A stretch of DNA of 64,000 nt, taken from assembly GCA_033439255.1 (NCBI GenBank), contig CM065878.1, positions 1,674,001 to 1,738,000 of the forward strand, in the 5' to 3' direction. Of this stretch, positions 14,164 to 45,734 are shown piece by piece. Below the pieces are notes generated by a model. The model saw nothing but the letters and a program-made list of their open reading frames with translations. It was not told the DNA's origin and did no database searches. A program made the position numbers and the translations under genes. Each line of letters begins with the position of its first letter. Position 1 is the stretch's first letter. Source of the DNA: Hericium rajendrae (Eukaryota > Basidiomycota > Agaricomycetes > Russulales > Hericiaceae).

Positions 14164-14254
14164 GAGCGGCTCACGGAGAACGGCTCACGCGGAGCGGCTC
14201 ACGGAGAGCGGCTCATGAAGAGCGGCCCATGTAGTGCGACTCACGGAGAGCAGA
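14164..14254. repeat. Short tandem array with GGCTCACGGAG units
   Basis: About six imperfect units of roughly 14 bases (AGCGGCTCACGGAG type). On the minus strand the core is GTGAGCCGCT, related to the GAGCCGG-core arrays elsewhere in the window. Confidence 0.65.
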
Positions 14255-15016
14255 GCTCTGAACTGATGCGAGGTGATCATCGCGGCCGCCAAAAGCGTCT
14301 AGGTCCACTATCGTAAATTTAATCGTCTGGTTGATATAGTCACGTTTGTTCTCGGCAGAGAGGGCAGCAAGGCCAAAGTATCCCAAGGGTACTACTTCAT
14401 CGCCGCCATGGATCCAGGACACATTCAGCGGCTCTGTATCGTGGCCGAGAATATGTCTGTATTTGAAACCCGCAGAAATTTGAGGAAAGTTCGTCTCAAA
14501 AGGGGACCGCTGAAACGTACCGGGCCGTTCATGCTCAAAGTGAGGCTTCAAAGGATTTTATTATGCAATGAACCATACTGCAGAGGGCGGATTTACGAGC
14601 CATTGGACGGTTCCACTCTCGCCTTGTTGTCTACGTTCAGAACTGAGATGCTGACGACATGCTGTGCAATGGCATCCACAACTTCACAGAGAGTAACGAA
14701 GATCAATCCAAAGCCAACGAGAGTAGCAATGATCTGCCAGACATGAACAGGCCCCTCTTGTAGAACGTGTCACGGCGGCGGCGGCAGATGACGCAAGTAC
14801 TCTTGCTGCGAGTCCGAGGCCTGCAGCACTCATGTATGTGTTGCCCTCGATGATTGACCATGAATTCACTTTCCGTTGTGAGGCCAGTTCTGCAGCAGAA
14901 TCAGTTTGAACTGCCATATCGCGATCAATAGGCATGCGCCAATGCTGCAGCCTATCATTGGTGCATGAGACAAGGCAGATACATGCTAGAACAGTACTAG
15001 CTAACGTAAACCCCAC
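14255..15016 (-). other. Possible remains of a membrane-protein gene
   Basis: Minus-strand open pieces include a hydrophobic helix (IIATLVGFGLIFVTLCEVV) near 14660-14750 and another possible one (LASTVLACICLVSC) near 15000. The pieces lie in different frames and I could not join them with convincing splice sites. A small multi-pass membrane gene or its remnant is possible; no family is recognised. Confidence 0.25.
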
Positions 15017-15034
15017 GCTTCGGCAAACAGCTGG

Positions 15035-18000
15035 CTAAGACTCAACAAGATAGGAGAGGTCCAACACATCTAACTCGTCGCATTGATTCCACTTTGCGCC
15101 CGCGATCAGGGACATCTCCCCAACCTTGTTGGTCAATTTCTGCAAATCCTTCGTCATTTCTGCCTTCTTCGATCCAAAGATCGCTTTGCCTTTGAAAATG
15201 AGGATTCCCTGGATAATTCTCCTCGCTTCCTTCCATTCCTCGAGGTCCTCCCATGCAAATTGCGCATACGCCTCCTCGCGATATCTCCTCGACTCATAGA
15301 GTTGTGGGGCCATGATCATATGGGCGAGCGCAAAGAAAGATCGCTTTGGGATGACTACAGGACGTCGATATCATCCACTATGCCAAGACAACACGCTACT
15401 CACCCTTTTTGAACTTTGTGAACGCAAGCACCATGCGAGAAAGCGAACGGCCGATGGTCGTATGTTCGGCATTGGTGAGACTGGATTCAATCACCCGGTC
15501 GACATAACGACACCACTGCGTGAGGTGCATGAACTTGTAATTTAGAAAATGGCCTCCGGTGGCGATCGTATTTACACTGGTGTATACTTCGTGTACCATG
15601 CCCGGAGGCATGAGCCTATGATGTATCAGCTGCGGTACGTTGAGGCTGAATCCAAATACGCACAGGGTCAATTTCTCGTGCAAAAACAAACAGTAACCCT
15701 TGTTGGTCCTGAAACCAATGATCTCTTCCTCTCCGGACGACATTTTGCGGTACAACCTGACAATCTTCTCCTTGGTGCTTAGAGAATCCTCTTTGAATAT
15801 GCGAAAACCCCAGAACTTTCCGCCTGACCGGATGTTCATCCACGTTCCGTATCCGTTGGTGTCGTAGTGTGGAAAAGTGTAAAACCCGCCCATCGTGATC
15901 AGATCCCAGTTCCGGAGCGCCAAGCTATCAGCACTGAGCGTCTGTGGGCCGAGAGCATCCATATTATGCCCTATTGTCTTCTTCAACGTCGCGGGCGTGA
16001 GCTTGTTCAGATTGTCGCTATTTTCCAAAGCACGCAGGTTCATCTGTTGCTCTTTGCCCGGCCTCGGTCTTGTCGCGTCCCTGCAGACCCGGTTCGCAGC
16101 TTCAGAAAAACCCATGTCCTTCGTGACTCGCCACGCTATCTGGTCGTCAGATAGCCGACTAAGACAACATCATGGTGAGTTAGATCCAGGCGATCCTGCG
16201 TGCATACACACCTAACGAACCAAGGTACAGCGCCATCTATCGCAGGGGAATCCAGGATGTTACCACATTCATCGGGTTCTTTTGCCAGTTTCAGAAACTC
16301 TCTGAGCGAGGTTGATTTATATATGTCGCACGAGGGGCTTCCGTCGCGTGCGGGGATTTCAACTCGACCTTGCGTTGACGGCCCCTCTTCATCGCTCGAA
16401 TCTCCCTGGTCGTCTTCGGCCAGCGGGCGGCTGCCTGTTGCCCTCGCCGCATCCCTTTCGCGAGCACCTACAATGTTATTGCCATAAGGTGGCATCCACA
16501 AAGTGAGTGAAGACGACTCACATTGCCATTGATACTTCCCATCCAAATTGGCTTGCAAAGACGTCAAGCCGGCTTCATCGAATTCAATTCGTGGACCGCC
16601 TGGCATCCAACCACGCAAGAGCGCCACCTTTCCCAGACTCCACGCGTGTTCTATGCGGTCAAGGACACGCCGCTCCTCCGTTGAAGCCGTCTTGCCATCG
16701 GACGTGAGTCCAGCTATTCCCTTTCCTTCCACGTCATCTAATTCTATCAATACGACAGGGCTGTCATTGTCCTCCACGTTCATCGGGACGGCAGAACTGC
16801 GGGCCATATTTTTCACGGCCTCAGAGTCTAAATTAATCTGTGCATGGAATAAGTAACGCGGAGACATCTTCAGTTCGGAACGCTTACGGTTGTCCTGTCA
16901 CTCTTCACGAAAGGCAATACTGTGCGCATGCCATTCGGCCAAGTGCATTCCTCCGAACCCGCCGGCCACTCCTTTCCGGGTCGGTCACCGATGCAACAAT
17001 CCAACGGGGGAAGCTGATAAGCCGATGCGCGTGTATCGCCCCCTGCTATGAAGCTTGTCCTCCCGGCCCTGGTTTGAGGTGGTCGAGTGGGAGAAGGTCC
17101 GTGAGAGGGCCCCTTCTCCAGGGCAGGTTTGATATCATCATACGTCTGGAAATTGATGTCCTCCGGATCTGGACCTGATGACATGACTATGAGATCCTTC
17201 TCCTTCTCCAACAAGAAAAGCGGTGGACCGGGGGAGGAGCCAACCTCGATAGGATTCCCCTTAACACCGTGTTTCTTCGGGGAAGGGGTTGCCTCGATGA
17301 CAAGCTGCTCCTGGGATGGAGCAGACCGCTGTCCTGGCCTCGAGCTTGGACCGGGGGTCCCGCCATGAACGTCATGAGACGGCCGGGTGGCTTTCGCAGG
17401 ATCGTTCTTCATCCGCTTTGAAGCGCTCTCGGTCGCCTTTGCGCTCCTCTCGTCCAGGCCGCGCTTCCTGTTCTTCGTTGCTTGCAGCAGTCCATCCACA
17501 GCGGGAAGGCGCTCCATTCCCACTGTCTCCAGCCAATGTTCCACCGCGTCAACATCCGAACCGAGATTGACTTTGCCGGTGCCAGGCAAAGTACCTCGCC
17601 CTTTGTCCTTCAGCCAGACAGTGAATGCGGTCTGTCCATGGGTTTGACGTGATCGAGTCGATCTCAGGTTCTTGTCACGATCCCACCAGTTCCACGAATT
17701 AACGCCGCCGTACCACATTTGCAGACCCGGAAACCAAGGATGTTCCACCTGCTCCGTCGAGTTGTTGCCGGGCCATCGAATGCACTTCCCTTTGCCGTTA
17801 ACGACCCAAACCGCTTTTTCTTCACCTGTATTGACCCATATGTCTCCTGGTTCTCCATAATCATCTCCCGGATTCCACGGCGCAAACACGATAGCACAAC
17901 AGTAGCTGTATTCGGAAACTTCCTTCGCCTCTTGTTCCCCGCCCTTCGCAGTGCGATGCACGGTTCGCTGCGTGGTTGGTATAATGTAGGGGCAATCAGA

Positions 18001-18144
18001 GTGTACCTTCTGGGATTTGATCTCGACGAAATTTGTCTTCAACCGGCGACGTTCCAAATGGGGCACAGAAGGCGGGACGGGGTCGCAGTCAGGATATGGA
18101 GGGACCGTGGAGCCCCACTTCTTCACAAATAGTAACGCGTTCAT
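15035..18144 (-). CDS. JmjC-domain oxygenase (putative histone-demethylase-like)
   Basis: JmjC proteins are Fe(II)/2-oxoglutarate oxygenases; many remove methyl groups from histone lysines. Five minus-strand exons fit: 18144-16888, 16837-16522, 16467-16217, 16139-15404 and 15354-15035. The N-terminal 420 residues are basic and Pro/Ser-rich, with a Trp-rich patch (NSWNWWDRDK) and an RKRG/SKRMKN nuclear-signal-like region. The JmjC core is in exon 4: HYDTNGYGTW supplies the His-x-Asp of the iron triad, SGGKFWGFR follows, and PPGMVHEVYT supplies the distal His. The upstream exon carries the JmjN-side features LREFLKLAKEP and CGNILDSPAIDGAVPWF. All three iron ligands appear present, so activity is plausible. 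Substrate is unknown. The donor of exon 3 (GTTAGG) is weak. Confidence 0.8.
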
Positions 18145-18276
18145 CTGTTTGTACCGCAGGACGTGCGGTCAATCGTGCAGTACCGCAGGATTCGAGCTAG
18201 CGAGCGAAAGATGGAACAAGTCGATGGCGGCTCGAGACAGGATGCGCCCCAGATACACGTCAATGTGGATTGACAC

Positions 18277-19904
18277 GTGACCGGCGAACTTGACAGCTCA
18301 CGCCAGTGGCACGACGTCCCCCCGCACGCTACCATCATGACTGACCCTCCTGAACTAGGACCTACGATCAACAGCGTGGGCGTACTACAGGCCATGTATT
18401 CCCGTTCTTCAAGTGCAATAGAAGGTCTCATGAGAACGGGAAAGGAACGCCCGAGTCCTCTGGAGAAGATGGATCGGGTGAGTGATCCCCTTCGGTCACA
18501 AATACCCCTTGGTACACGTTCACAGATGTGCCCCACTATGCTGGACACTACGACCATGGATTGGGTGAGTGATGCCCCGGTGACATGTAATTTGCGATGA
18601 AGACATTCACAGATGCGCCTGGCATCTGATATTGGCCATGTACATTTGGTTCATCAAGCCAGCCAGCGTCCATTGATCAATCACAACGTGGTGAGACAGT
18701 TCAGACAGGACATGGGTGCACCGCAGAAACCGCCCTCGCCTTCTACCTTCGGCACCGGGGTCACCTATCAACAGCGGTACCATGTCATTGGCCTGCCTTC
18801 GCTCGCGACAGATGTGCGTTCTCTACATGGAGACATGCACGAACTCCGAATATTTCTGGGCATGTTATTTGCAAGCGTATGTGGCCCGCGCCCTGCTGGT
18901 AATGGTTAATTCATCATTATACAGCAGCGTAACGAGGAGCAAAGTGACGCGGACGCAGAAGCATTCGGTGCGCAGTTGCACGTCGCCTGCGAAGCCTTGC
19001 ATCTGCTCCAGCAAACCTCCACCACCATTGCTGACGAGCTATGGAATGACGCGAGAAGTATGACACGCGGTATGTCTCTGCTCGAAAGGGCCTTCCTGGG
19101 ATGCGTGCCTTGGCAGGGTACTTCCAGAGTGCGCCAGGAGCCGCTCAATCCGGAGGACCAGAACCCTGCAAGCGACCCACCTGGCATACCTCTCCCACCA
19201 CTTCCCTGCCTGGCTCAGCAGATTCTAGACCAAATTGCTTCAAGAATTCGGTCTGCCATCCACTCTGTCGAAGGTGGTCTTGGCACTTGGGACTTTTGGT
19301 TCATCCACGAAGGTGTCAATCGTGAATTGGTACGCGAACCATACGCTGGATTTGGTCACGTTTGTTCACGGCCCTAACAGGCAGCTGCATCGCTATTGAT
19401 CGGTCTAGGACATCTATCTGGCCACCCACTTATCGTAGACAATTCTCTGAAAACGGTCAACGAAGACCTGTTCCAATTGGCTACGCTACTATCTCCGGGA
19501 AAGAATGCGACTTCTGCCACGAGGACAGACTCCACCCACGTGCTTGACCTTCCTCGATGGTGGGAAGAGCTGCGCTGTGATGAGGCCTCCGCTAACTCTG
19601 GGATGACGGCTCGTGTACCTCCGCATATAGTCTACGAAATGATCATCTCTCTCGGAGAGCAGTTTAACCGAGTATTTCTTCATAGTCGTTTTCGGAGTGT
19701 TGGTCTTTGCTGAGACTATGTTAATAGCGCTCGTCGAAGGACCCCATGCTTGCCTTCCTTTTTAATGCCCAACAAGCCATCGCTGATGCGACGGCGGCAT
19801 GCATCCATGTGAAGAACATTATCCATGATGACGAAATGAGGATAAGCGAGGAGGAGGAGATTTGGGATGGGTTGAGACAAACTGTGGCCCATCACACACG
19901 TTAG
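18277..19904 (+). CDS. Hypothetical protein, multi-exon
   Basis: I do not recognise this family. Exons fit at 18277-18479 (start possibly at 18337), 18526-18564, 18613-about 18876, about 18926-19329, about 19381-19671 and 19729-19904. The last intron (GTATTT donor to AATAG acceptor, 57 bases) joins EQFNR to RSSKDPMLAFLFNAQQ and the protein ends WDGLRQTVAHHTR. It is soluble and mildly acidic, with helical stretches such as EAFGAQLHVACEALHLLQQ and no signal peptide. The first two exon-intron junctions look like a tandem duplication of each other. The gene is divergent from the JmjC gene, with only about 130 bases between their starts, so they probably share a promoter. Confidence 0.5.
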
Positions 19905-20852
19905 TGGCCATCAGCCCTGTAGTTACAGGCGCGTGCAAAAGTTGTGATAGATTTTGTCCTAAATTCTCCATGCAAATATCGGCGCCATGGCTATACTAAG
20001 CCCATTTCTCATGCTTTGACAACAGTTCCCCTGCTCATCCTCACCAACGCTCCTTCCACGTCCTGTATAACATTTCCGCCTTCCGCAGCTCTTCCATCGC
20101 CGTTTTGTGTAAAGGTACGAGAGTGTCTATCGCTCTCGCGACCTTCTCGCACGCATCCCTTTCGTGTTGCATGATTTCCCAACCCACTCGCAAAGGCAGA
20201 TTTCCATAATGTCCGCCGCTTTGGGATGCGGTTGCAGAGACTCCTAAAATACGCATGAAAAGTATGAATAAATTTCATCTGGTCAAACGCACCTTCTGGT
20301 CCTGTGTCAAGCCGGTCCGCGTGAGCCGAACGCGTTGCCATGCTCCAAACACGCACCTGAACCGTTACGGGTGATATTCATCCCTGGCTTCCTGTGCGAG
20401 TGATCGTCCATCAGCGCATCGTCGCGCTCAAGGCGCGCTTCCTCCTAGGGTAGAAGGTCGTACTTAGCACAAGGCGTACAATGTCAAAGGACGGGGTAAA
20501 TACCACTTCTGCACCTGCAGTCGGCGCGGGGGCCTGGATACCTGCAGCATTACTGCCTGGCGCGGGGTCTTCATCCGCCATTACAATATCTTGAACTAGC
20601 TTGTTCCGACGACTGGATCCTCTGAGGAAAGTAGCAGAGTCCAAACCAGTGACTTGTGGTAAATCCATGGCGTCGTTGGCAAAGCCTGAATCTTCCAGCC
20701 ACACTCGTCCGAACCGGTGCCCCGCTTGCCCGTTTCTCATGTGCACTAGGTGCCGACCAACAACAACTGCCCCAGCCACGGCCTTCTCTCCATCGACTTG
20801 GTGCCGATCTGTCCTTCTGTCCCTCTCCGCTCCCTGTCTCTTCGTGCTAAGT
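19905..20852 (-). other. Uncertain minus-strand coding pieces
   Basis: Minus-strand frames at 20041-20256 (MRILGVSATASQSGG..., ending RKAEMLYRTWKERW) and around 20411-20740 (ending FYPRRKRALSATMR) have coding-like composition with an Ala/Pro linker. No domain is recognised and I could not build one gene from them. They could be exons of a small minus-strand gene divergent from the gene at 20853, or noise. Confidence 0.25.
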
Positions 20853-23647
20853 ATGGGCGACGAGACACTCCTACGGCGTTTCTGCTGGCGCGTTGCTCGT
20901 TTGGAAGCGGCTCTCAAGGTTCTCAAGGCATTGCCTCCTGCTGCGAGGCAACGGTGGTTACCGCAACTCCATACGGAATACGTGAGTCCGTTCCATGCCC
21001 TAAGTGCATACTTACAGTATAGGATAGGATGCTGTCTCCTCCTGTGGCAACAAGTGTGTTAACAAGGTGGAGGGGCTGCCTCTCCCGCCCATCGTTCTCA
21101 GTGCGTGGAACGAAATGGCCGAAACGGATATCGACATCAAACAGTTGGACTTCTCTCGCCTTTCAGAGACGTATGGTAATGGACCCCCTATGTTTTTCCC
21201 GGAAGGGGCTCTCGAATGGCACGACGGCTGCGACGAAGATCGGTGGTGGAGATCATTAGATGCATCCGCTCCCGGCGTCTCGCCTCGTACAGGACCCCAG
21301 AACCTCGTCGAACATGATGGTTCCCTTAATGGGCCCCAACCAGAGCTGCCGCTCTCGCACAAAGATCCGCCTACAGTGCGTGACAATCATGGACTCGATC
21401 ACCCCCAACGTCCACCCTCCCCCTTCGACGATCCACCGACAGAAGATGCAGAACAAAACCCCGTGGAACGTGGATCTGCAGATTCTCGTGCCAGCTGCCC
21501 AGAGATCCAAGACGTTCCTTCCTGTGGGAAGGTATGTCCTCCTTCCTCCCTCCGAAGCAGCAAAGTAATGTGGCACCGCAGCGTCAACGGGCAGAGGGAG
21601 ATTCCCCCAGTCGGTCGTCAACTATTCAACAGCAAGACCCGATGGACGAAGATGAAAGCGAGGATGATCGCCCCATACGCCAAAAATCCGTCGTCCCTAT
21701 TCAGGTCAAGGCAGGACCGTCCGCTCCACCCAATCGTGTAGAGAGGCAAGTGCCCCGGACCGCCAACGACGCAGATCAGGACACTTTTCAGGGCCAACAG
21801 GTAGACGCATTCCTTGCGGTGCTGGCTGACTTTGCTTATCAGAATGCGAGCATACTGACGTGTATAACATGGCAGAACCTCACAGAATCCCAGCTGGATG
21901 GCGAGCAGGAATCGGTCGAGGCAGGTGGAAACAACGTCGAACATGGACCAAACGCCGCGGAGATGGTCCACGAGGGACTCGACCCAGCATTGGACCCACG
22001 TGGCATCTATCCCAGTCGCCTCAGCCACCGCCGCAGCCGATCGGCGACAAACCCCGGCAATGGGGAAAAGGTAAATTTCATTGCCTGCACTTTTCCTTCA
22101 ACACGCTAATATTGAACCGTAGCGTAAACGACCAGATTCGGACAGCGAGGAGGAAGTGACTGAGCCTCCCCATATACCCAGCATGAGAGGCACTAGTGGG
22201 CCGAATGACCGAAAGGTACATCGTTTGTATGGCATCGCAGAGCGTGTGTGATAACGTTCGCATGTAGCGAACGCCGGGCCAGTCTTCCGTACTGGACCTT
22301 AACGAGGATGGTCGCGAACCCCCCAGCAAGAGGAAAAAACAAACGTCTAGTGAGAAACAGGTACGCCTTATGGCATGCACTCGTTTTGCGGATTTGATCA
22401 AGCTTCCCAGGCTGTTGACGATGTGGCGAGCATGGTCAGCCACCGAGGTGACAATCAAGCAGTCTTCGTCGGGAAGGGACAGGAGGGAAAAGAAGTAAGT
22501 TCCACCATGGCGACAATAATCCTGTTTTTACTCTGCCATTCCAGGTTCTCAGGCATCCAGTCTATTTGGAGTGGGTGGACACGATCAAGAAAATCAAGGT
22601 GCGTGGAGAACAGGTCATATTATCTCAAGCTTACCATCTCTTTGCCAGCTTTCCAAGTGCGATTACTGCAACAGAAAAGGCCTTATCTGTAAAGACAATC
22701 TCGCTTGTCAATCCTGCCCTCCATGTTCACAAGGCAAGAAAACATGTTCGCATCGAGCCAAAGATGCAGGAACAGGGACCAAAAAGGTGTATCGTCCGAA
22801 CCAATATCTGTCCGTACTCAAGCTCCACGCCGTTGAGCCTTACCCCGAACTCCCGGATATAATAACAACAGCGGATGTCACGACCAAAGTACATACTCTT
22901 CCCAACGACGCACCCCCCCGGCATCTGGTCACCTTGGCGCCCGATGAAGACCACCATCATGTCACGTCATCCTCATTATCCCCAGACAGTTCCTTGAAGC
23001 GCACTCGTGCTCAGACACGTAAAGCGCAAGGGCTCGGAGACGTGCACAACACCAATGGAGAACAGGCTGTTCCCATCCAGAAGCCACAGAAAGTCGCAGG
23101 GTCCGCTCTTGGTGCCACGGTCTTTCCTAGCCAAATGGTTCCGCATACACCTGGCATGCCCCAGCAAGCGGCTGTCGAACGGGCTTCTACGACCGAAACC
23201 AATCCTTCCAGAGATAAAGGCAAGCAGCGGGCGGTTCGCGTCTCCCCTCCCGTCCCTCGCGTCTCGCCTGCGTCGTCCTGTGTTCCCTCCCCCAAGGCCG
23301 ACATTCTCCCTCGTAAACCCAAGGGAAATCAGAAGTCTCGTCAAGTATCGCCTGCCACACATTCATCCAGTTCCCGAACCACGTTCTCAACCCCAAATCC
23401 GGGGCCACAGCTTTCCGAAGCAGCCTCCTTGCGGGGACACTTGAACACGATCGTCACCGACATCAAACGTATCGACTCGGACGCGGCGAGTCTGGCGGGA
23501 GTATGTCACCAAATTCGATCTGGGCTAGAGCAGATGGAAGGAGTATGTCATCAAATTCGATCCTCGCAAGCGCAGATGGAAGCGAGAATGCTTTTCATAG
23601 AAGAGAAACTGGATCTTTTGCTGGCGATGGAACGTGCCCGGGGTTGA
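20853..23647 (+). CDS. Hypothetical protein with a Zn-binding-like cysteine cluster
   Basis: No named family is recognised. The start MGDETLLRRFCWRVARLEAA leads through several short introns (for example 21534-21583) into a long acidic, Ser/Pro-rich region with many nuclear-type basic patches (PPSKRKKQTSSEK). Near 22650-22760 is a cysteine cluster, C-x2-C-x4-GLIC-x6-C-x2-C-x2-C-x5-C, reading CDYCNRKGLICK then CQSCPPCSQGKKTC. This resembles the Cys patterns of basidiomycete Zn-binding DNA-associated proteins but is not a canonical Zn2Cys6 domain. The C-terminus has a heptad-like region with a 48-base tandem duplication giving GVCHQIRS twice. The end (23647) is firm; internal splice sites are approximate. 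Confidence 0.5.
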
Positions 23648-24255
23648 ATAGCGTCGTCTTTTGCGGCAGCCGTTGACTAGAGCTCTTTTCTTGATTGGTT
23701 ATTAGTTCCATATATAGTCTGTGCAGCCTGTATCACTCGGGGAACAATCTACCTTACTATGCTTCGCTTCTCATGATCAATGCAGCCGCGAGGGTCGAAC
23801 TCGCTCTACATTTGACAGCTCGAGCCTCGCGATAGTACCTTTATCATATTGGGATTCTGTCGAAGAGGGGGAAAGTCTAACGCCATAGAGCAACGCAGAA
23901 TTCCATCCGCACTGGTATGGTTTTGTGAAGAGCATACACAGTATAATGGCTGCAGTGCTGCAGCGTCCTGCCTGCCCGGCGTGACGCTGCACTTGTGACA
24001 TAATTATCAGATCACAAACTCCTCTCCTACTTATACTAAAAGCTGCTTACCGTTCCCGGATTACTTACTTCCCGCGACTGGCTCAATTATATTATGCGAT
24101 ACAGCTCCGGGTGGCAATGTTCGGTCATTATTTGCGAAACTTCAACTTATAAGTTCCTCCGGTTTGTCTTTCTGTTTGTGACCTTCTTGTCACGTCACAG
24201 TTCTCGTTTGGATTGTGGATTGTAGATTCTGATCTGTGGCTTGTGATCGGGTCGG
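23648..24255. other. Intergenic, nothing recognised
   Basis: AT-richer stretch between the cysteine-cluster gene and the Ulp protease gene. No coding exon, RNA gene or repeat was identified. Confidence 0.5.
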
Positions 24256-26562
24256 GTGAAGGCAGGCCACAGTCCGGCCAAGACACTTCTGGATCTCATG
24301 GATCTAAACACCACAACCTGCATCTTACCTCACCGTTTCCAACTGCCGCTCAGTGGATGGGCGGTAGGCCTCAAGATCATGGCCACAGACGAATATTCGC
24401 CTCTTCTCACTCGCTACGCGCTTATATGGGACGAGGAATATAGCTACTTGCTCTTGGTGGACACAGTTATCGACGCCGTTATGTTGTGGACCAACCTCGC
24501 CATCCATACGGTAGACTCCGTGGTAGCTGTGAATGTCCAGGTTGGCGCAGTCTAAGACAAATTGAGTTTTGATTGACCATCATCTCGACAGGAACCTGTA
24601 CAACATACCCTTGCTGTCAAGATCAAGTCCTCTGCGAAGATGCGGGCCAAAGGCCGGTACTGCACAGCGCTCAAGCCCGGTACGTAACGCTGGCTGTCTT
24701 TCTAGCCTGCGTCTCACTCGCATGTCAGGGAATGCCGGTCATTCTGGTGATCTGATGTTTAGATTTACGACCAACGTCCCCGAATGGCAACCGGATGGGT
24801 ATACATCCTTGCTCGCGCACTTGTCGAGAGGGACATCAAACATGCGCTATGTCGCGTATGCATCGTTCCCTGTCTGGAAACGAATACAATTGGTTTTAAC
24901 TCTGACATATCACAGACCATGTACTGCAGCGTCGCTTTGGGACAGGACATGCCAAGTATCCAACCCACCTGCGGGTGTTGTCCACGGACGAGATGACGGC
25001 TCTGCCTCGAGGGTTGTGCCCCAGTCATCCTCTGTACCAGGTGATTCAACAGGTTATACATCCTTGATCTCCCCAGTCCCAGTCGACGGCAGTATCCCCT
25101 CCACCGCAGCACATTCCCTATCACGCTTCCCTTCTCGTGCATATCTAAGCGCAGATACACTCGATTCTGAATCCGACATCTCCCAATCCCTGGAGGTGTA
25201 AGTAACAGATCTTGCTCTGCCCACGCATTTCCCAACGACCGCTGACTTCATCTGAAGTGTCTTGGTGTACCCCTTAGCAGGAGCTCGGGCGGTGCACATA
25301 ACAAGAGCCGATTGCGGGCGACTGAGACCAGGAGAATTCTTGAACGACACTGTAATCGAATTTGGACTGAGGTAAGAGGTGCCATATACTTCGAGCAATC
25401 ACTCAGAACGTGTGATCAGACTGTTCTTGGACGAATTACGTCAACGGAAACCTGAAATTGCAGAACAAATACACCTGTTTAACTCCTTCTTGTACAAGAA
25501 ACTGTCAGAAAACAAGTGAGTTTTGGGGTATGAGTTTACATCCTGATACCATGGTACTCACATGACATCTAGGACCACAGATGGTTACAAGAGTGTCCGC
25601 ACATGGACATCAAAAGTCGACATTTTCCACAAAAAATATATTGTTGTCCCGATTAACGAAGAGTAAGATCCTGTTTGCTCTGGGATTTTCTGATTGCCTC
25701 ATACTTATCGCGCACTGGGTAGCTTGCATTGGTATCTGGCCATCATTTCCCATCCCCAGTATATTCTATTTCCGCAACGTGGAGCGTCCCGTGATCTACA
25801 ATCGAGCGCGGCACAACAGGGAATCATGGAGTCTGGTTCGGCGGCCTCTCACATCACAAGCCATCCAGTGACTGCTTCACTTGACCCACTCGCCACCTGC
25901 AATCCTGCACTCGGTTCTCGTTCGACCTCCGGTGCACCGGTCTCGGATTCATGTCTCAGTGATGCCCGTAACTCGTCTCAGGGAGGCAACAATCAACAAC
26001 TTGGGAGGTGAGGTCGAGGTGTCATTGAAGATTGAATATGCTCGCTGATCGCCTGCGTGGCAGCACCTATATCTTCACTCTTGACTCGATGGGTTCAACT
26101 CACCCCGACGTCGTGAACAGGCTTGGTGCATACTTGAAATACGAGGCAATGGACAAAAAGACTTTGGACCTAGAGGACACGGGGGACGCACATGGCAAAA
26201 AAGTTCACGTAAGACCACCCTTTCCCTTTCTGGGCGCTGTTCAAACTCCCGCTATAGGTGCCCTCTCAACCGAATTACTGCGATTGCGGCGTCTATTTAT
26301 TGCACTTTGCCAAGACATTCTTCAACGAACCAGACCTGTCCCAACAAGTAATCTTGGTGTGTACTCAAAATGATACTTCTATGGTGACCGCCTACAATGT
26401 GCCAATCGTTCGATAGGCTCAGCCCTCCAAGTGCGGGGGGAAGCCCCCCAATGATCACTGGGATGACGGATCGATTCCAAGTTTACGCGAGGACTTGAGC
26501 CGCCGAATTGAGAGCCTATCTCAGCAATGGAGATGCATGCAGGATGGGGAAGAGCAACGATA
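24256..26562 (+). CDS. Ulp1/SENP6-7-like SUMO protease (C48 peptidase)
   Basis: C48 proteases cut SUMO precursors or remove SUMO from targets in the nucleus. The catalytic domain is spread over several exons between about 25260 and 26350. RLRPGEFLNDTVIEFGLR is the entry motif, followed by FNSFLYKKLSE and WTSKVDIFHKKYIVVPI. The active-site parts are HWYLAII (His), FTLDSMG (Asp), and PSQPNYCDCGVYLLHF (Gln and Cys). An insert of about 65 residues between the His and Asp strands is the arrangement known from SENP6/SENP7/Ulp2. The C-terminus (REDLSRRIESLSQQW) ends at 26562. The N-terminal part from 24256 and several introns are less certain and I cannot exclude a damaged reading frame there. All catalytic residues are visible. 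Confidence 0.75.
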
Positions 26563-27177
26563 ATGACACTTCTCCTTGCGAGCATGGCCATACGCGAACA
26601 TAATTATCGCCTTCCACTGTCTGCTCATGTGTTTTATGCAGTATCCTGGAGTACCCATGCAATGTTCAGACATGTTGTCTCATTTGTCTCAGAATCAAGT
26701 ACATGGAATGTCAATGTGATGTGCGATTGATATATATGTTCCGGCTCATGGTTTGCATGCCCGAATTGCTCCAGCCCGCACTCTCCACGAGCCGGCTCAT
26801 TCTCGATACGCCGCTCCGGACGACCCGCTTCCTCTGCGAGCACGTCTCCGATTAGATACCCTGCATCGTCCATCCACCCCTCTGCCCGGGGACGTTCACA
26901 TACCCATAGCAACCCGAATATGACTCGTTGAAAAATACATTCAATATACACCTCGTGTCCCACACGATCATAAGCCAGGAACAAGGACACGAGGTTCCGT
27001 TCAATGTTTTCTTCAGATTACTGTGCAAGTCCCGCTGCGAAGGATTTCAACTGATAACCATCTCCATTATCCACCATTGAAAATCAACATTAGCGGGTGA
27101 CGGGAGACGTGAACTCAAGACGGAGCACGCTCGTCTGGGTGTACAGTAGTGGATCTCATTCCGACGACACTGGAGTG
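26563..27177. other. Intergenic, no firm gene
   Basis: A minus-strand open frame (26634-26990) has no recognisable domain. Otherwise nothing was seen before the GAGCCGG-type array at 27178. Confidence 0.45.
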
Positions 27178-27253
27178 CGCGCTGAGTGAGCCGCGCGCTA
27201 AGTGGGCCGGGCGCTAATTGAACCGGGCGCTACCGGGCGCTAATTGAACCGCG
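27178..27253. repeat. GAGCCGG-core tandem array, 16-base units
   Basis: Five units of the type GCGCTGAGTGAGCCGC, GCGCTAAGTGGGCCGG and GCGCTAATTGAACCGG, one shortened. It sits immediately upstream of the promoter-leader module that precedes the F-box gene. Confidence 0.75.
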
Positions 27254-27742
27254 ATCGAAAACGTCCTTGCAATCTCGGTGTGAACACGCGCCTCGACCTT
27301 TCCATCCCACCACACTTCCCGCACCTTGGAATCATCCATTTACTCATTCTGCTATAATCAAGTTCAATTTCTGTGCTTCTGTCTGCATCTCCCAATATCC
27401 ACTAGCAACGCTCCGCATATAGTGGGGTACCCTTCTCTCACCCGCATCATTAGACGTTCACATTGCTGCACAGAAACTATTCCTCCAAATTTTCGTGTCT
27501 AAAAACCTTTTCACTTTCAACCTTCTACGAAAAAGAGTGAGTTTTCCCAATTTTGTTCCTTGGAACACTTCCAAATGATCGCTCTTGCTCACAAACAGCG
27601 CATTCATCGCGCATATATTCTCTCTTTCGATTAAAAAAAGGTCATTCATCGCCCCTGGAAAGAAAAACTGTTACCGTAAAACCAATACCGTGAAGTATCT
27701 ACCTCTTATTTTCATAGTCATCTTCTTACTCTATCTCTACAG
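27254..27742 (+). promoter_or_regulatory. Promoter, leader exon and leader intron, copy 1
   Basis: This stretch upstream of the F-box gene is similar over its length to 63385-63861. Shared blocks include CCTTGCAAT, CCATCCCACC, TTCATTG/CATTCATCGCGCATATAT and AAAGAGTGAGTTTTCC. The last block contains a GTGAGT donor; with the acceptor CTCTACAG at 27735-27742 it defines a leader intron of about 205 bases that ends 20 bases before the ATG. Similarity between the two copies ends at the acceptor. Confidence 0.65.
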
Positions 27743-27762
27743 CCCTCGATCTGTAACTCACA

Positions 27763-29247
27763 ATGCCTATTGCTCTCACGACCCGTCGAGACAAGACATA
27801 TATTCCGACGGAACTGTTACTCCGTATATTTGCACACTTCATGGCCTACAACTCAAACAAATATGAAGCGATGATCCGTTTATCCCTGGTCTGCAGACAG
27901 TGGCAGGACATCACACACCACCACTGCAAGTTCTGGCTCGAGCTAGTCGGGCTTGATATTCCGGAATCATTCTTGGCAGAGATTCTTCCGCAATCTTTAT
28001 CCTCTGCTGTTTCCCTATCTTATCGTCCACGAACGTCCCAGTTCCCTGAAATCGTCGCTTCCAATCTTTGCCGCATCCACAGTCTCGATCTCCTTATCCC
28101 TTTCTCTCTTCGTTCCCTCATCATCAATGCCTTCAATACCCCTGCTCCATACCTTCGGAATCTGACACTTACCCTCCGGGATGGAGTCAGTTTTGAGCAT
28201 GAAAATGCACAACAAGACGCATATCTTTTACCCGCCACTCTCTTCAACCATGGTGCCCCGCTTCTCAATTCTCTGACACTACTAGGATTCACTGTTCCCC
28301 TGTCTCCCACTGTGTTTTGCGGAATGCATTCCATCAACCTGGGACCATGGAACCCCTGGTTCGGTCCACAGTATCCCCTTCTTCCTCTACTGGATGCACT
28401 CCGCAACGCCCCTAGCATGGAGGTCATCATCCTCGCCGATTGTGTCCGGATGGCAGATTCAAACCTCAGTCCCGATTTCATTGTGCACCTCCCACATCTG
28501 AAAATCTTGGACCTCACGGGCGTCTCATCGGATATTCTGACCCTTGTCCTGGCTCTTTCCCTCCCCCCTTCTTGCAAGATCAAGCTTTGGGGTAGGACTG
28601 AGGGCGATTATGACCGACTCTTGACGACTTTCATGAGAAGGGTCGCCTTTCCCGCCACGCAATCTATGAAGCTAAACGTAGAGGCGACCTGGGGTCGCAT
28701 TGACTTTGTCCTGGAAGCAAACGACGCCTCTTCGAGACTACAGGCATCGTTTCCAGATGCAGATGGTCATCTCCTGGTCATCGCATCAACGTTCATGCCC
28801 ATGCAAGTTATCTCAGACATCGCAGTAACCGGAGATGGCCTACCTGATATCTCGCTTGCTTGGTGGTTCTTTCTCATATCTTGCAACCGTGTCAGAACGC
28901 TTTCACTCTCTGGACCCGGCACTCTGGATCTCTTGCTCGCACTCAGTGCACTCACTCAGCTCGGTACTGTCTTGATCCCCTTGCCTCAACTGTCTACGCT
29001 CCACCTCGTTCACGTTGACTTCGGGATGCACACTGATCTACTGAATCTCACCCTCGCGGACCTTGTGCGACGCTGCTTGGACCAACCCAGACGCCGCTCC
29101 ATGACGCTCACAGTGGAACGCTCACGCACGACAAACCAGGTGCTCGCATCTATCTTGGAGAGTGTTACGCATGATGTCGAACTCGAGTGGGACGGTGAGG
29201 AAGATTTTTCCGAGACTGAATCACTGGTTAGTGAGGGAGATGAATAG
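27763..29247 (+). CDS. F-box protein with LRR-like C-terminal region
   Basis: F-box proteins bring substrates to SCF ubiquitin ligases through Skp1. A single exon encodes 494 residues. The N-terminal F-box reads YIPTELLLRIFAHFM then MIRLSLVCRQWQDITHHHC, with the usual Pro, Leu-Leu-x-x-Ile and Val-Cys-x-x-Trp positions. The rest is a Leu-rich, weakly repetitive solenoid of the kind common in Agaricomycete F-box proteins. The acidic end (EWDGEEDFSETESLVSEGDE) is unstructured. Substrate is unknown. The coding start at 27763 is supported by the leader intron ending just upstream. Confidence 0.85.
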   Translation: MPIALTTRRDKTYIPTELLLRIFAHFMAYNSNKYEAMIRLSLVCRQWQDITHHHCKFWLELVGLDIPESFLAEILPQSLSSAVSLSYRPRTSQFPEIVASNLCRIHSLDLLIPFSLRSLIINAFNTPAPYLRNLTLTLRDGVSFEHENAQQDAYLLPATLFNHGAPLLNSLTLLGFTVPLSPTVFCGMHSINLGPWNPWFGPQYPLLPLLDALRNAPSMEVIILADCVRMADSNLSPDFIVHLPHLKILDLTGVSSDILTLVLALSLPPSCKIKLWGRTEGDYDRLLTTFMRRVAFPATQSMKLNVEATWGRIDFVLEANDASSRLQASFPDADGHLLVIASTFMPMQVISDIAVTGDGLPDISLAWWFFLISCNRVRTLSLSGPGTLDLLLALSALTQLGTVLIPLPQLSTLHLVHVDFGMHTDLLNLTLADLVRRCLDQPRRRSMTLTVERSRTTNQVLASILESVTHDVELEWDGEEDFSETESLVSEGDE

Positions 29248-29499
29248 GCGACGGATCCGCATTCCTTGCGCAGACGATAGAGGGGGGTCAATGGTTTGCA
29301 TCTCTTGTTACACGAATTGTAAGAAACTCTATTATGTGTAATTATAAATAAGGAGATGGCGTCGGTCATGAACAGAATGTAGGCGAGTCCCTCATTCTCA
29401 TGGAAGTGGACCACCTTGCATCAGATGGACGTATGTAATTCAATCTTATGTAAAGTCTTCCTTTTTGGTCTGCCCAATATGCGTTGTACTACACTATAG

Positions 29500-29547
29500 A
29501 GTGGGCCGGATCGCTCAATGGGCCGGATTGCTCAATGGGCCGGGTCA
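29500..29547. repeat. GGGCCGG-core tandem array, 17-base units
   Basis: Three imperfect units of GGGCCGGATCGCTCAAT type, close to the unit of the array at 27178. Confidence 0.65.
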
Positions 29548-29589
29548 CATTAACTTGGCCTCGAAGTTTTACGATTTTTGACAGGCCTC

Positions 29590-29745
29590 TCTGCTCTTGA
29601 TACTTTCATCTGCAGAACAGCTGTCGTGCATCAAACGTGTGTAGCACACTTGTGCTCCACGAAAGTGCATGTCTCCAAGGTGAAATGCCTTGCCTGCAGT
29701 AGCCATGACAGTTCGAGAGTTTGATGTCGGGTGGGCACACAGTAG
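29590..29745 (-). pseudogene. TET/JBP oxygenase gene fragment
   Basis: On the minus strand the text reads RTVMATAGKAFHLGD then RGAQVCYTRLMHDSC, matching RTVMAIAGKALRHGA and RGSRVCYAWFMRDD of the full gene at 31450-32652. The segment upstream of RTVMA no longer matches in frame, and a 12-base piece (GATGTCGGGTGG) that is coding-strand sequence in the full gene appears here in the opposite orientation, as if locally inverted. The fragment is too short to be functional. Confidence 0.7.
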
Positions 29746-30116
29746 GTTTTATCACGAGAAATTTGAGGCAGGTAAACTCAAATCGCTCCCCTGGACGTGC
29801 AAAGGCACACGTACGCCACCGCCTGCCACGAGGCTGGGAGCCACAAGCATGGCATTGTCAAACCGCGTCACTACATGCAATCCATTTACTTCGTGCACTT
29901 CTAAGTGTTTCGCATCCTACTGTAAAGAGACCTATGGACACTACTTCGAGGTGCGTAGCGAGCATCAATCGTTTCAAATCATTTACTACAAATTGGAGGA
30001 CCGCGTTGGTTTGTTGTCTCAGATTTTATCGTCGTTGTCGGTGGCGGAGGTACTCTACGGGTGAGGCCAAGGAGGATTTGGTGGGTGCAAGCGGAGGAAG
30101 CGTGCGGTACGTACCA
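29746..30116. other. Decayed sequence between a TET/JBP fragment and an unknown gene
   Basis: This stretch may hold further remnants of the TET/JBP copy or the 3' end of the minus-strand gene at 30117-30915, but no frame is convincing. Confidence 0.35.
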
Positions 30117-30915
30117 GTGACAGAGAGGGGGCTCCGGTCAGAAAGTCCTCATCGGCAGAAGGGGAAGATCCCGTCAAGGGACACGGAGGATCGATGAAAA
30201 CACCGTCCTGAGGAACCAAGCAGGGGTCCATGTCCTCCTCCTCTGCGCCATGAATGCACTGCTAACAGTAAGAAGGATGCGGAAGCTGAAAAAATATGCT
30301 TACAAGTTCACATGAGAGTCCGGCTTGGGTGGGATGGGCGCTGATGGCCTTGTTCGGTACATTGGCCTATGAATACGCAGTTCATTGTGTGACGAGGTGT
30401 AGAAATTCTTACAGATGCGGATACCAGCGTAGGATCATACCCGGCATTGGTAGGGAGGGTGGGGAGCTGGAGAGGATAAGTGTATGATGACGGATGATGG
30501 ATATATGGAACTGACGTAGTAGCGGTCGATCATATAAACCCTGTGGCGGGAGATGGCTGCATTATAGGAGATAGGACCACTGAGTGGATATTCTTGAAGG
30601 GCGGCGGCGACGGAGACACCGATGCAATTTAAGCCAGAATCACCCCCGAGAGCATGGGGAAAGAGAGCATCGTCGTCCCCTTCCATGGCCTCGAGGTCCG
30701 GAATGTCGGCATCCGCACCGGCAACGGTGGCATCGGAGGTTGCATGCTAAGACAGTGAAAGGCGCATTATGCGAACAATTAAGAGGGAGACTTACGTTAT
30801 CCATGAGTTGTTGCACGTGTTCTAAGATATCAGCACGTTCCTTCTCAGGAGGAATGAGAGGGGATTGAGGGAAGTCCGTGTTGTTTGTGAGGGGTTCGGT
30901 GGGAGTGGGAGGCAT
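30117..30915 (-). CDS. Hypothetical acidic protein, multi-exon
   Basis: No family is recognised. Exon 1 (30915-30796) reads MPPTPTEPLTNNTDFPQS... and joins in phase to exon 2 (30746-30516), which is Asp/Ala-rich (DADIPDLEAMEGDDDALF), and to exon 3 (30466-30413). A later exon around 30253-30117 reads CIHGAEEEDMDPCLVPQ and onward. The splice sites of exons 1-3 are clean (GTAAGT/TTAG, GTCAGT/CCAG). The 3' end was not located; a GTACGT donor near 30117 suggests another exon that may run into the decayed segment beyond. It lies head-to-tail behind the TET/JBP gene, about 530 bases away. Confidence 0.45.
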
Positions 30916-31449
30916 TGTAGGGTTAGAAAAAGGACGTCGAGGACGTGGACTTTATATAGGGCATGATTGACGGCATCAATGTGGATCGCTGGATTCTGGA
31001 ATATCACGCAGGAAACGTGTAGACATCCCGTGACTAGACAAGAGGGCGAGGGGATTGAAGATTCGCATTGCCATTGTTGGGAGCAGAGGAGGTATTCCAA
31101 CAAGGTTTTTATTCTGTAACAAAGCCTGGTTGGTGCGGAAGTGGCACACCTCTCGATCAATGTGTCACTATGCTCCAAATACAATGAGCCAGACACAAGA
31201 CCGAATGCATCTGTATATGGGGGATAGCGCCGCTCAAACGCACCACTCTGGACATAAAGTGCTGTATGCAAGATGCGTATTATGGTATGATATGTTCACA
31301 AAATCAACGTGGTACAGTAGGTGACAGTAGTGGTGACAAGAGACACAGGGACACACCGTAAGGGAAACTCTGTAATGGTAATAAGCAGCAGGGTATACAG
31401 GAAGGAATGAAGTGAAGATGGTATAGCAAGCATGATCTTGGCGACCTTC
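30916..31449. other. Intergenic, nothing recognised
   Basis: The stretch contains the promoter of the minus-strand gene at 30915 and the 3' flank of the TET/JBP gene. No further gene or repeat was seen. Confidence 0.5.
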
Positions 31450-32652
31450 TCACTCGCTCCAGACTACCGGTTTGACGAGCGCTCGATGATGTACGTCATC
31501 GCGCATGAACCAGGCGTAGCACACTCGTGATCCGCGAGAGTAGGATGCTCCGTGGCGCAATGCCTTCCCTGCAATAGCCATGACCGTTCGAGGCTTGTAG
31601 TCAAACGTCCACCCGACATCCGGTAGGTCGAACGCTCCATCATCGTAGTCCCCGATGGTGCATAACACATCAAAACCCGCATCCAGGCCCGCCCTGTCCC
31701 TGTGAGCTGGCGTTAATCGATTGGCGATGACAGAAACGCCATTGAATACGCTCGGCCACTTTCCAATGGAAGGATATAGCCGTTGCTTCCTCCGGAGATA
31801 CTCCATCACCTTTTTCCCGGCCTCATACAATGCAGGATGCACAACTGCCAAGATGGCGCTCATCAGCGCTGCGCTCTCCTGGATGCCTTCCAGCCAGTTT
31901 TGAACATTTGGATCCTTCAAGGAGGCTGATGTCCTCACTTCGAATTCGTGAGTCTGGTGATGTCACCAAGTCAGAGTAGGGTATGGGGCAATGTTTTGTT
32001 ACATACGTTGCGCGCCTGCTCAAACCATGCTGGAGACATTGTCGCCGTCCCAGGCGTAAATTCCATGGTGGAGTCCTGCATGAAGAATTTGCTGTCTACC
32101 CTCCAGTTCCCCGAACCTGTGACCAACGACGAACGAAATACATCGTTGAGATTCTTGGTCGCCGCGATCATTTTCACCTGGTGAAAATAATTAGAGATTA
32201 TACTGACATTTTGGACTGCCACCCACTTCATGCTGACGTGATAATATGCCTGGGAGGTACCATCCAAAGCAGAAGCCGTACACATCGACCAGCTTGTGCG
32301 GGGTGTCCAATATTCCTCGCTCTTCAACCTTCGGATATTTTGAATACGGCGCTGTAGTGTCCGGCTTCTGCCCGGCACTGGCATACCTGGGCATATCCCA
32401 GTCCAGTTTCACTGTGGACGTAAAATTGGATCAAAAGGACATGACACCAGAGTAGGGCTTACAAGGATTCGCCGATGCTTCATCCAGGACAATTGCAGCC
32501 CAGTCTAATTCTTGGATGACATGGATAGGTAGGGTTGAGGGTTTGGCAATATCAGCAATACTGCCGTCGATCACATCCCGCTGTTGGATGCGATTATTCC
32601 ATCTAGCAGTCAAGTACTGGGCCATGTCATCTTCGAGTTGGATGGAGTCCAT
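31450..32652 (-). CDS. TET/JBP-family dioxygenase
   Basis: This family oxidises methylated bases in nucleic acids (5-methylcytosine in TET, thymine in JBP) with Fe(II) and 2-oxoglutarate; expansions are known in mushrooms. Four minus-strand exons fit in frame: 32652-32463, 32411-32227, 32177-32007 and 31953-31450. The core is in exon 4: SVFNGVSVIANRLTPAHRD supplies His-x-Asp, DVLCTIGDYDDGAFDLPDVG is the following strand pair, and RTVMAIAGKALRHGA supplies the distal His. RVCYAWFMRDD holds the Arg expected to bind 2-oxoglutarate. No CXXC or other DNA-binding domain is visible. The length of about 350 residues is at the short end for fungal members. It is divergent from the H3-variant gene, with 634 bases between the start codons. 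Confidence 0.85.
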
Positions 32653-33286
32653 GATGAGAGATTGAAATTAACACCGAATTTGGCGCAGATAGGATCGATC
32701 CATTTGTCGAGTTGAGGCGCGGCGTGGCTCGTGAGCGCTTGATGAAACCTGCGCCAAATAAGGCCAAAAATAGCTATCTAATCTAATCACAAGCGCTTCG
32801 GCTCGTACCTCCTCCGACACGGAATGATAATTCTAAGTCACACTCAGGAGGCAAATAACGGTGCTGATAAGAACATCCCTTGCTCGGAGAGCAAGGCTCT
32901 GCACCCACAGAAAGGCGCAGATCCTGTGTCTATAGCGCCGTCTAGGCGGTGATCTCGTCCCAGATTGTTTCCTAAGTTTGCCGTTTTGTATTAAGTTCGC
33001 CGAGCCCTTCTAAGCATCGTTGCCTCGGTTCTAGTCTGTAGTCTTGTCGCGGATTGTTGTCGCGGACAATGTCGGCATTGCCTCACACAGTCGACAACTT
33101 CTTCCTTAAGCTCGCCGTTTCCTGATTGAGCTCGGTCTAATACTTGTTGTCCGGGTATTCAGTTGTCGCGGACATGTCGGCATCGCATCCCAGCTACGAC
33201 GGCGTCCCGTTGGCCTACATGAAGTCGGGCATTAGCTGTGAGTTCTTCACTTTTGCCCAACCCTCCTGCTTTTCTACTAGGAAGCA
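32653..33286. promoter_or_regulatory. Shared divergent promoter of the TET/JBP and H3-variant genes
   Basis: This 634-base gap separates the two divergent start codons. It contains a 17-base palindrome-like CTTGCTCGGAGAGCAAG (32879-32895) and two near-repeats of GTCGCGGACAATGTCGGCAT type (near 33055 and 33168). A leader intron for the H3 gene probably lies at 33237-33280 (GTGAGT donor, CTACTAG acceptor). An upstream ATG at 33174 opens a frame (MSASHPSYDGVPLAYMKSG) that would stop at a TGA formed across the splice junction. Confidence 0.45.
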
Positions 33287-33893
33287 ATGGCGCGCACCAA
33301 GCAGACTGCCCGCAAGTCTACCGGTGGTCAGTGATTGTTTGCAGTGCAGCCCAGTCGTTCTTTCAGTCTGACGCACTTTTGTCATCAGGCAAGGCACCCC
33401 GTAAAAATATCGCTGCCATTACGGCCAGCAATTATCATGATCCCAGAAGGGTACGCCCCTTAGCATGTTGGTTTTGTTTTTGATTTATTGATGTACCGGA
33501 ATCCAAGGCCGATTACAAGGGGCCTGCTCCCATACCTGTGAAAAGGCCTCATCGTTTCCGCCCGGGCACCGTTGCCCTTCGTGAAATCCGTCGCTACCAA
33601 AAGTCGACGGAGCTGCTCATCCGCAAGCTCCCTTTCCAGCGCCTTGTTCGTGAGATTGCATACAGCGTCAAGGCGAGTTTCCTTTCCTTTACTCATCTCT
33701 CCTCGCTCACCTTCGTTGACAGCCCGACGTGCGCTTCCAGTCGTCGGCTGTCATGGCCCTTCAGGAGGCTGCTGAGGCCTACCTCATCTCTCTCTTCGAG
33801 GACACCAACCTTGCTGCCATCCACGCGAAGCGCGTCACCATCCAGCAGAAGGATCTTGCGCTTGCGAGGAGGCTTCGTGGCGCACGTTTGTAG
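33287..33893 (+). CDS. Histone H3 variant with a rewritten N-terminal tail
   Basis: Nucleosome core histone. Four exons fit: 33287-33326, 33389-33450, 33508-33672 and 33723-33893. The first 18 residues ([18 protein letters not shown]) are canonical, so K4, K9, K14 and K18 are kept. Residues 19-44 ([15 protein letters not shown], then [12 protein letters not shown]) replace the usual tail and are about nine residues longer; the K23, R26, K27, S28 and K36 contexts are gone. The globular domain is nearly canonical ([37 protein letters not shown]), with YSVKPDVRFQ in loop 1 at normal length, so it is not CENP-A. The intron after VK uses a GC donor (AAG|GCGAGT). The intact globular frame argues that the gene is under selection. 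The exon 2 to 3 junction decides the tail and should be checked. Confidence 0.8.
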
Positions 33894-34627
33894 ACTTAGG
33901 CCACCAATTTCATCATCGCTAGTACTATACTCGTCCGCCGTCACTTAGTGCCAAATGTCGAGGAAATCTTGAAAGGCAGATTGCGAGAAGTGCGAATAGT
34001 GGTGCCTATAGCCATGATGCAGATGTTCGATCATTGAAATAAAATTTGTTATAAACGGCTGAAGAGCGGCTCGAGGGTCAACAGCTAGTGGGTTGAGCAA
34101 GATTCGATTGAGGCGTGCGCCGTCCTCATCAAGCGTCCCGTCCCGCTTAAGTGTCTTGTCTCCATCAGTAGGAGATCGGGAGATTTCTCAGATTTGAGGA
34201 GCAATCCCTCGCAATGACATGGGGCGGTATAAGACAAATCACGGCGCCAGGTATGTGCAAAACTTCTAATCATTGCCTTGCTTACACAACAGCTGGGCCC
34301 TACGTTATGTATGAAGGACCGGCCCGGGAGTATCATGTGCATGGCCTGCGTGGCCCGCATGTCCTTTGTGGCATCGCATGTCCTTCTAGCACTGGACAAC
34401 TTCTTTGAACTCCTGTTGTTTGAATGAATTAAATTTTGCAAGAAATATTGGGGCCAATGAACCAGATCTGCATATGCCAGGCTCAGGAATCAATTTCACG
34501 GATTGGCAAGCGTGGGAACAAGGGGCACCGGGGCATGCCGTGCTGAGCAGTGCGTGAGAACTTACATGCAGATGGCTGCCAGCTGAAGCGCTGAGCGCTG
34601 AGCCACTGGGCACGCGGGGTTTCTCTC
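33894..34627. other. Intergenic, with a minor GAGC-type repeat
   Basis: No gene was seen. Near 34578-34610 is a short GCGCTGAGCGCTGAGCCACT stretch related to the dispersed GAGCCGG-core arrays. It includes the promoter of the gene at 34628. Confidence 0.45.
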
Positions 34628-45629: not shown

Positions 45630-45734
45630 AGAAACATGTGCAATCGGACTCCCCTGTATCTTGACCCTGTGTCTCTGTATATGTACAATAGCTGTGTATT
45701 AATCTGGCGCCCTGTCGCCTCTTTTTTCAACGGC

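Follow-up and report, generated by a model that had tools for sequence, protein, structure and literature searches.

A probable accessory gene island

We describe here an island of approximately 22 kb (14.05-36.2 kb) within a 64,000-nucleotide stretch of DNA (C1:1674001-1738000, referred to hereafter as the window, whose positions are used unless a contig is named), in which genes for a JmjC protein, a SENP-like SUMO protease, a TET/JBP dioxygenase and a variant histone H3 lie together. We consider it probable that this is an accessory island which has been duplicated and reshuffled, with exchange between chromosome regions, such that the linkage of its genes mostly reflects shared ancestry and not an operon-like system. 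All comparisons were made within one genome (46.77 Mb, 19 contigs), whose short introns, F-box genes and abundant KDZ and TET matches suggest a basidiomycete-like host. A preliminary description of positions 15,035-33,893 had named a JmjC gene, a SENP-like gene, a cysteine-cluster gene, a TET/JBP gene with a fragment of another, and a nonstandard H3, and we recovered all six features; its view of the neighbourhood as accessory and locally assembled is likewise borne out, by a rearranged copy on contig C12.

A rearranged second copy on contig C12

A genome DNA search (queries 15035-24500 and 24501-34500) and direct comparison placed this copy at C12:2145968-2203500, a region of approximately 57 kb lying 23-80 kb from the end of the 2,226,260-base contig, in which all island genes but the TET fragment have paralogues. 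Block A (14054-23540; the JmjC gene, an uncharacterised gene and the cysteine-cluster gene) keeps its orientation at C12:2145968-2155872. Block B (24168-29370; SENP and F-box genes, 97% identical) is inverted at C12:2203500-2191146, with its matched pieces separated by 7.6 kb on C12 versus 0.4 kb in the window, and block C (29978-32667; a small gene block and TET) is direct at C12:2177234-2183579, with a separation of 3.8 kb versus 0.2 kb. Block D (33057-36158; H3 and an uncharacterised gene, gene A) is inverted at C12:2177005-2174000, having moved to the other side of block C. Identity by segment is 79-97%, and likewise 79-97% for the non-coding DNA in the blocks; C12 thus carries contiguous paralogous DNA, both coding and non-coding, which identifies a segmental duplication. 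Retention of the genes on C12 was considered as proof of selection and rejected, since the intervening non-coding DNA has been retained too.

Divergence between the two copies is uneven. Synonymous divergence (dS) spans 0.036 (F-box) to 0.50 (TET), and differs within the JmjC gene itself (0.235 in exon 1, 0.062 in exons 2-6). When identity is taken in 250-bp bins, the 3′ half of the JmjC gene stands at 94-98%, positions 17.1-17.85 kb at 88-91% and 17.85-19.95 kb at 74-82%; the SENP and F-box genes reach 94-100%, and bins elsewhere fall at 70-94%, save one short end bin at 100%. This spread in dS and bin identity means that the blocks differ in when they were copied or overwritten, which a single duplication does not account for. 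The pattern would be explained if certain tracts had been overwritten or copied anew in recent times, and recent exchange between the two copies has probably taken place.

In both clusters the JmjC, SENP, F-box and TET genes are intact and, by codon comparison, subject to purifying selection. The C12 copy of the JmjC gene has no stops and only indels of whole codons (ratio of nonsynonymous to synonymous divergence, dN/dS, 0.42 for C1 against C12); that of the SENP gene is 97% identical in DNA, again with no stops (dN/dS 0.38, dS 0.064); that of the F-box gene is 98% identical in the coding sequence with no stops (dN/dS 0.40, dS 0.036); and that of TET, also free of stops, gives a dN/dS of 0.18 at a dS of 0.50.

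Linkage in the rest of the genome

To place this clustering in context we surveyed seven JmjC places (13 rows merged, two C3 matches 3.2 kb apart being one locus), 11 H3 loci (chosen by us from 29 rows), 17 Peptidase_C48 places (merged from 21 rows) and 46 TET places. Pairs of JmjC with H3, JmjC with C48, H3 with C48 and H3 with TET within 60 kb are confined to the C1 and C12 clusters. JmjC and TET come within 60 kb in one further case (C10, 39.5 kb, with a KDZ-linked TET), and C48 and TET in nine further cases, five of them pairs at 3.5-3.9 kb; no other cluster of the full set was found in the genome. Because the C1 and C12 clusters are homologous, the four-way set amounts to a single association.

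The preliminary description had held that a module would be refuted by independent, unclustered occurrence of these genes in related genomes with unrelated expression, and part of this is seen within the present genome: five of the seven JmjC loci and three of the five loci of the H3 variant are unclustered, and the C12 H3 copy is decayed. We count the window genes that lie outside the clusters (the H3 variants on C9 and C14, a cysteine-cluster copy on C3 and the five JmjC loci) in favour of shared ancestry. Random placement of 6 JmjC, 10 H3, 16 C48 and 45 TET places on 46.77 Mb brought all four families together within 20 kb at a frequency of 2e-5 (200,000 runs) and within 60 kb at a frequency of 3.2e-4 (100,000 runs), figures that overstate significance because the families were picked after the cluster had been seen and the uniform null is crude.

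The TET/JBP dioxygenase

The TET/JBP gene (31450-32652, minus strand) encodes 349 amino acids in four exons (32463-32652, 32227-32411, 32007-32177 and 31450-31953). One exon matches Pfam Tet_JBP at 2.2e-25 (89.2 bits versus a cut-off of 34.9), and the protein matches CcTet (PDB 7vpn) at 3.5e-26. An excerpt of a recent survey (PMC12730594) discusses CcTet residues His326, Asp328, Gly331 and Asp337; all four positions have matching residues in the window and C12 proteins, and both copies keep the HxD...H iron ligands along with the Gly/Asp equivalents of Gly331 and Asp337 (conserved segment HRDRAGLDAGFD in the window, HTDRSGQDAGFD on C12). The catalytic domain, HxD and Gly/Asp residues are thus shared with the AG-type TET/JBP proteins of Kyakuja (KDZ) elements and with CcTet of Coprinopsis cinerea (PMC12730594, as excerpted; PDB 7vpn, 8jkk).

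The excerpted survey (PMC12730594) regards the TET genes of fungi as cargo of transposons, and most of the TETs of this genome conform: 37 of the 46 Tet_JBP matches have a KDZ at 2.1-9.6 kb among the KDZ matches listed (approximately 150 of 172; distances were taken from 133 places, with 17 rows for second pieces of elements already counted left out). Another five have a Peptidase_C48 match at a distance of 3.5-3.9 kb. The four that have neither a listed KDZ within 10 kb nor a transposon-type C48 are the window TET, its C12 copy, C16:858996 and C5:1141088, the C48 neighbour of the window TET being the cluster's own SENP, 5.2 kb away. Of the KDZ elements that the preliminary description had brought up, none lies in the window among the matches listed; the nearest lies 1.295 Mb from the window TET and 0.373 Mb from the C12 TET. 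We accordingly rejected KDZ cargo as an account of the window TET, which differs from Kyakuja-borne TETs in having no KDZ among the matches listed within 1.29 Mb. The window TET is approximately 42% identical to six KDZ-linked TETs (those readable out of the 37), over 248 columns of the catalytic half with an unspliced intron included. It is therefore of the same broad type as these but not a recent copy of them.

A TET/JBP fragment of 34 codons (29617-29718, minus strand) corresponds to the catalytic C-terminal part (tblastn, 50% identity, E 4e-5); it has no C12 match, lying in the unmatched stretch 29371-29977. On C12, PIF1-type helicase open reading frames (ORFs), in pieces, occupy C12:2178729-2181314 between the small gene block and TET, and none lies between these two in the window. 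The five TET matches beside C48 (C2:3866436, C4:1122998, C4:348987, C9:549710 and C14:67218) are weak and have no listed KDZ within 10 kb; these pairs look like a separate transposon family with TET and an Ulp1-type protease.

The histone H3 variant

The H3 variant (33287-33893, plus strand) encodes 145 amino acids in four exons (33287-33326, 33389-33450, 33508-33672 and 33723-33893), the third intron of which starts with GC, not GT. It has a complete fold (Pfam Histone PF00125, 6.1e-41 over residues 7-141) and a canonical N-terminus, residues 1-19 being identical to those of the host H3 at C4:2961 (the C9 copy has one change, T6N). The tail is canonical to K18, after which 25 residues replace the 19 of the host's H3 at C4:2961 (host segment QLAAKSAARKTATGAATGG) before the core resumes at VK. 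The protein consequently departs from canonical H3 in tail length and in lacking K23 and the ARKT/K27 motif; K4, K9, K14, K18 and K36 are kept (numbers by alignment). Identification as CENP-A was rejected, the core and residues 1-19 being near canonical.

The variant family comprises five copies, of which those in the window, on C9 and at two places on C14 are intact. The C12 copy, with no start codon at the aligned place, indels and stops (dN/dS 0.45), is read as decayed. Pairwise dN/dS is 0.18 for window-C9, 0.12 and 0.11 for window-C14a and window-C14b, and 0.13 for C9-C14a; for the replaced segment (codons 20-47) it is 0.06 (window-C9), 0.20 (window-C14a) and 0.16 (C9-C14a), rough values from few sites. 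These codon-level values indicate that the variant is under purifying selection. None of the C9 and C14 variants has another window gene in the 10 kb around it. The C14 copies sit one in each unit of a direct repeat (C14:452893-458736 and C14:1417462-1423298; 5.84 kb, 99.5%, approximately 965 kb apart) at which no target-site duplication or terminal repeat was seen, so carriage of this H3 as a transposon passenger was set aside and the pair left as a duplication.

A PRC2-type CXC domain match at C9:342040 makes K27 methylation plausible in this host. Variants of H3 are absent from most ascomycetes and present in Basidiomycota, according to an excerpted account (PMC6703697) that mentions the basidiomycete variants. 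Both Candida H3V-CTG and Arabidopsis H3.15 are H3 paralogues with an altered N-tail, and the window protein shares the absence of K27 with H3.15 (PMC7410336, in excerpt); H3V-CTG differs in being changed at positions 31, 32 and 80 (PMC6703697, in excerpt), whereas the window H3 has a replaced tail segment. An H3 with an altered tail and no K27 is thus a known kind, and a literature search on H3 variants, covering result listings and excerpts of PMC6703697, turned up no description of this particular tail.

Further H3 genes were seen in passing. The H3 at C6:460 kb looks like CENP-A by sequence; a second divergent H3 (C1:3485800-3486800, 141 amino acids) keeps the ARKS motif; and an H3 at C4:2875500-2876500 carries a frameshift in the assembly, through either an error or decay.

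The JmjC and SENP genes

The JmjC gene (15035-18144, minus strand; KDM2/KDM7-like) was modelled as six exons (16888-18144, 16522-16837, 16212-16467, 15664-16158, 15404-15615 and 15035-15354) encoding 951 amino acids with no internal stop, and its five introns are all GT-AG and 48-54 bases long. A Pfam search of the protein returned no family at E 1, and no JmjC, PHD or CXXC domain. A phmmer search against the PDB aligned approximately 110 residues around the active site with KDM2A/PHF8 (E 1.6e-7), placing HxD and the distal His in register, and a further aligned lysine is one that we take to be the 2-oxoglutarate ligand. A JmjC domain with Fe and 2-oxoglutarate residues is accordingly recognised by the KDM2A/PHF8 alignment only: the protein resembles KDM2A/PHF8/KDM7 demethylases in HxD...H and the active-site surroundings, and differs from them in escaping Pfam recognition. 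Together with the CcTet match, this alignment upholds the earlier statement that the JmjC and TET/JBP proteins keep their iron ligands. A single-sequence AlphaFold model was poor (mean predicted local distance difference test score 39.9) and unusable. Of the seven JmjC loci in the genome, the five outside any cluster are 34-66% identical per matched piece.

The SENP gene (24298-26563, plus strand; 561 amino acids in an 11-exon model) carries PF02902 at 25412-25816 and 26255-26386, with the catalytic H, D and C present (motifs HW, D and PNYCDCG). Its best PDB matches are Ulp2 (1.7e-26) and SENP7 (2.8e-26), with SENP1 weaker at 1.5e-20; a C48 domain, the H-D-C residues and the rank of Ulp2/SENP7 above SENP1/2 together assign it to the Ulp2/SENP6-7 type. 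SENP7 is matched over the catalytic core in a single stretch (residues 236-508), and the match to Ulp2 falls into two halves, between which the window protein has additional residues. Given the second copy in the C12 cluster and the existence of other C48 loci, the window gene is probably an accessory paralogue.

Origin and possible function of the island

According to the explanation that we favour, ectopic recombination or gene conversion between two chromosome regions would have assembled these families and would continue to renew portions of the island. The TET may be descended from, or sister to, Kyakuja-borne TETs, now transposase-free, and the variant may be a host H3 with a swapped tail segment. 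Each protein would act in trans, the TET oxidising 5-methylcytosine, the JmjC protein demethylating some histone lysine and the SENP trimming SUMO, and nucleosomes with the H3 variant would be unmarkable by PRC2 at K27; linkage would mostly reflect the common ancestry of the island, with no dedicated operon-like arrangement. Several observations weigh against this explanation. Four chromatin families in 19 kb are unexpected under uniform placement, and the shuffling has separated the four in neither cluster, such that selection for linkage is possible. Linkage was judged in one fungal genome; single-pair estimates of dN/dS are coarse, and dS values are distorted where gene conversion has acted. 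No target-site duplication or inverted repeat was seen at the places inspected, so the rearranging mechanism carries no signature.

The linked genes might instead form an anti-silencing module that jointly maintains an open state over its own island and possibly over adjacent elements: the TET would strip DNA methylation, the JmjC protein a repressive mark and the SENP SUMO, and an H3 without K23 and K27 would resist PRC2. All four proteins are intact in the window with their catalytic residues and under purifying selection, to judge from its family each of them could remove or escape marks of silencing, DNA methyltransferase matches and the PRC2-type CXC match suggest that such marks may exist in the host, and the set is found together in both clusters after rearrangement. 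We nevertheless regard joint action of this kind as unlikely, as the two homologous clusters count as a single observation, the H3 gene has decayed on C12 and the variant is solitary at three loci, and an F-box gene and uncharacterised genes are interspersed. KDM2 enzymes, moreover, demethylate H3K36, whose methylation is not simply a mark of silencing. The fuller version, a self-protecting island directed against DNA methylation, PRC2 and SUMO silencing and spreading by exchange between chromosome regions, we hold to be quite unlikely. Much of the preliminary description survives in the intact genes, the kept iron ligands and the local accessory assembly; its joint module acting on flanking transposons is hypothetical. 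Its chromatin theme stands for the four intact chromatin-type genes and is diluted by the F-box gene (27763-29247) and two uncharacterised genes (approximately 18.3-19.9 kb and 29978-31025) among them.

Present or former carriage by a large mobile element, or by gene-gathering Helitrons, would also bring unrelated genes together. TETs do ride transposons in this genome, as the KDZ distances above indicate for the matches listed, and mushroom Helitrons are reported to carry captured genes (PMC4289320, as excerpted for Pleurotus), a likeness to which is offered by the PIF1-type helicase ORFs that adjoin the C12 TET. The island differs in having no demonstrated Helitron ends and, in its window copy, no such ORFs between the corresponding blocks; moreover, the block ends differ between the copies, inverted repeats of at least 30 bases are absent from 12-50 kb of the window, the inspected junctions have no target-site duplication, and no KDZ among the matches listed is closer than 1.29 Mb to the window TET, or than 0.37 Mb to its C12 counterpart. 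We think such carriage rather improbable. A stronger competitor, albeit still a doubtful one, is chance, by which unrelated families would have met in a rearrangement-prone, subtelomere-like stretch, with the theme in the reader's eye. This overlaps with the ancestry explanation, and it accords with the abundance of TET and F-box genes in the genome, the interspersed non-chromatin genes and the post hoc nature of the theme; the random-placement frequency of 2e-5 for 20 kb, and the small numbers of H3 variants and transposase-free TETs, count against it.

The grouping is real, and it is possible that the genes work together. Two intact, transposase-free TETs are here under purifying selection in the company of a likely histone eraser, a deSUMOylase and, in the window copy, an intact tail-swapped H3; the locus thereby lets one ask whether a fungus took the demethylase of a transposon into the service of its own chromatin. 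The variant H3 deserves notice by itself, since four intact copies keep a 25-residue tail segment without K27.

Other genes of the neighbourhood

The cysteine-cluster gene (20857-23647, plus strand; a nuclear-type protein) is represented by an ORF whose start is assumed, with 5′ exons outside the model; the cluster itself, CDYCNRKGLICK...CQSCPPCSQGKKTC, sits in the ORF at 22520-23647, for which no Pfam family was found above the cut-off. Its C12 counterpart (ORF 2154630-2155934) is open, and a third copy, at C3:486876-489954, stands alone in the surrounding 20 kb. The F-box gene (27763-29247, plus strand) encodes 494 amino acids in a single exon (PF12937, 8.3e-8).

An uncharacterised gene between the JmjC and cysteine-cluster genes (18337-19952, approximate limits, plus strand) was followed at ORF level only; its C12 copy is 74-82% identical in 250-bp bins, and the single ORF scanned (18910-19374) has no Pfam match. 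The small gene block (29978-31025, minus strand; ORFs, likewise uncharacterised) is 88% identical to C12:2177234-2178271 and adjoins TET in the window and H3 on C12. Gene A (34595-36158, plus strand; no Pfam match) is 79% identical to C12:2175527-2174000 and accompanies the H3 variant here as well as on C12. A second window copy of gene A lies at approximately 44124-46751, the two forming direct repeats that are up to 99% identical in parts. Beyond the island, positions 49008-49367 consist of in-frame 15-base tandem repeats within an open frame of 491 codons, encoding a Gly/Tyr-rich protein stretch.

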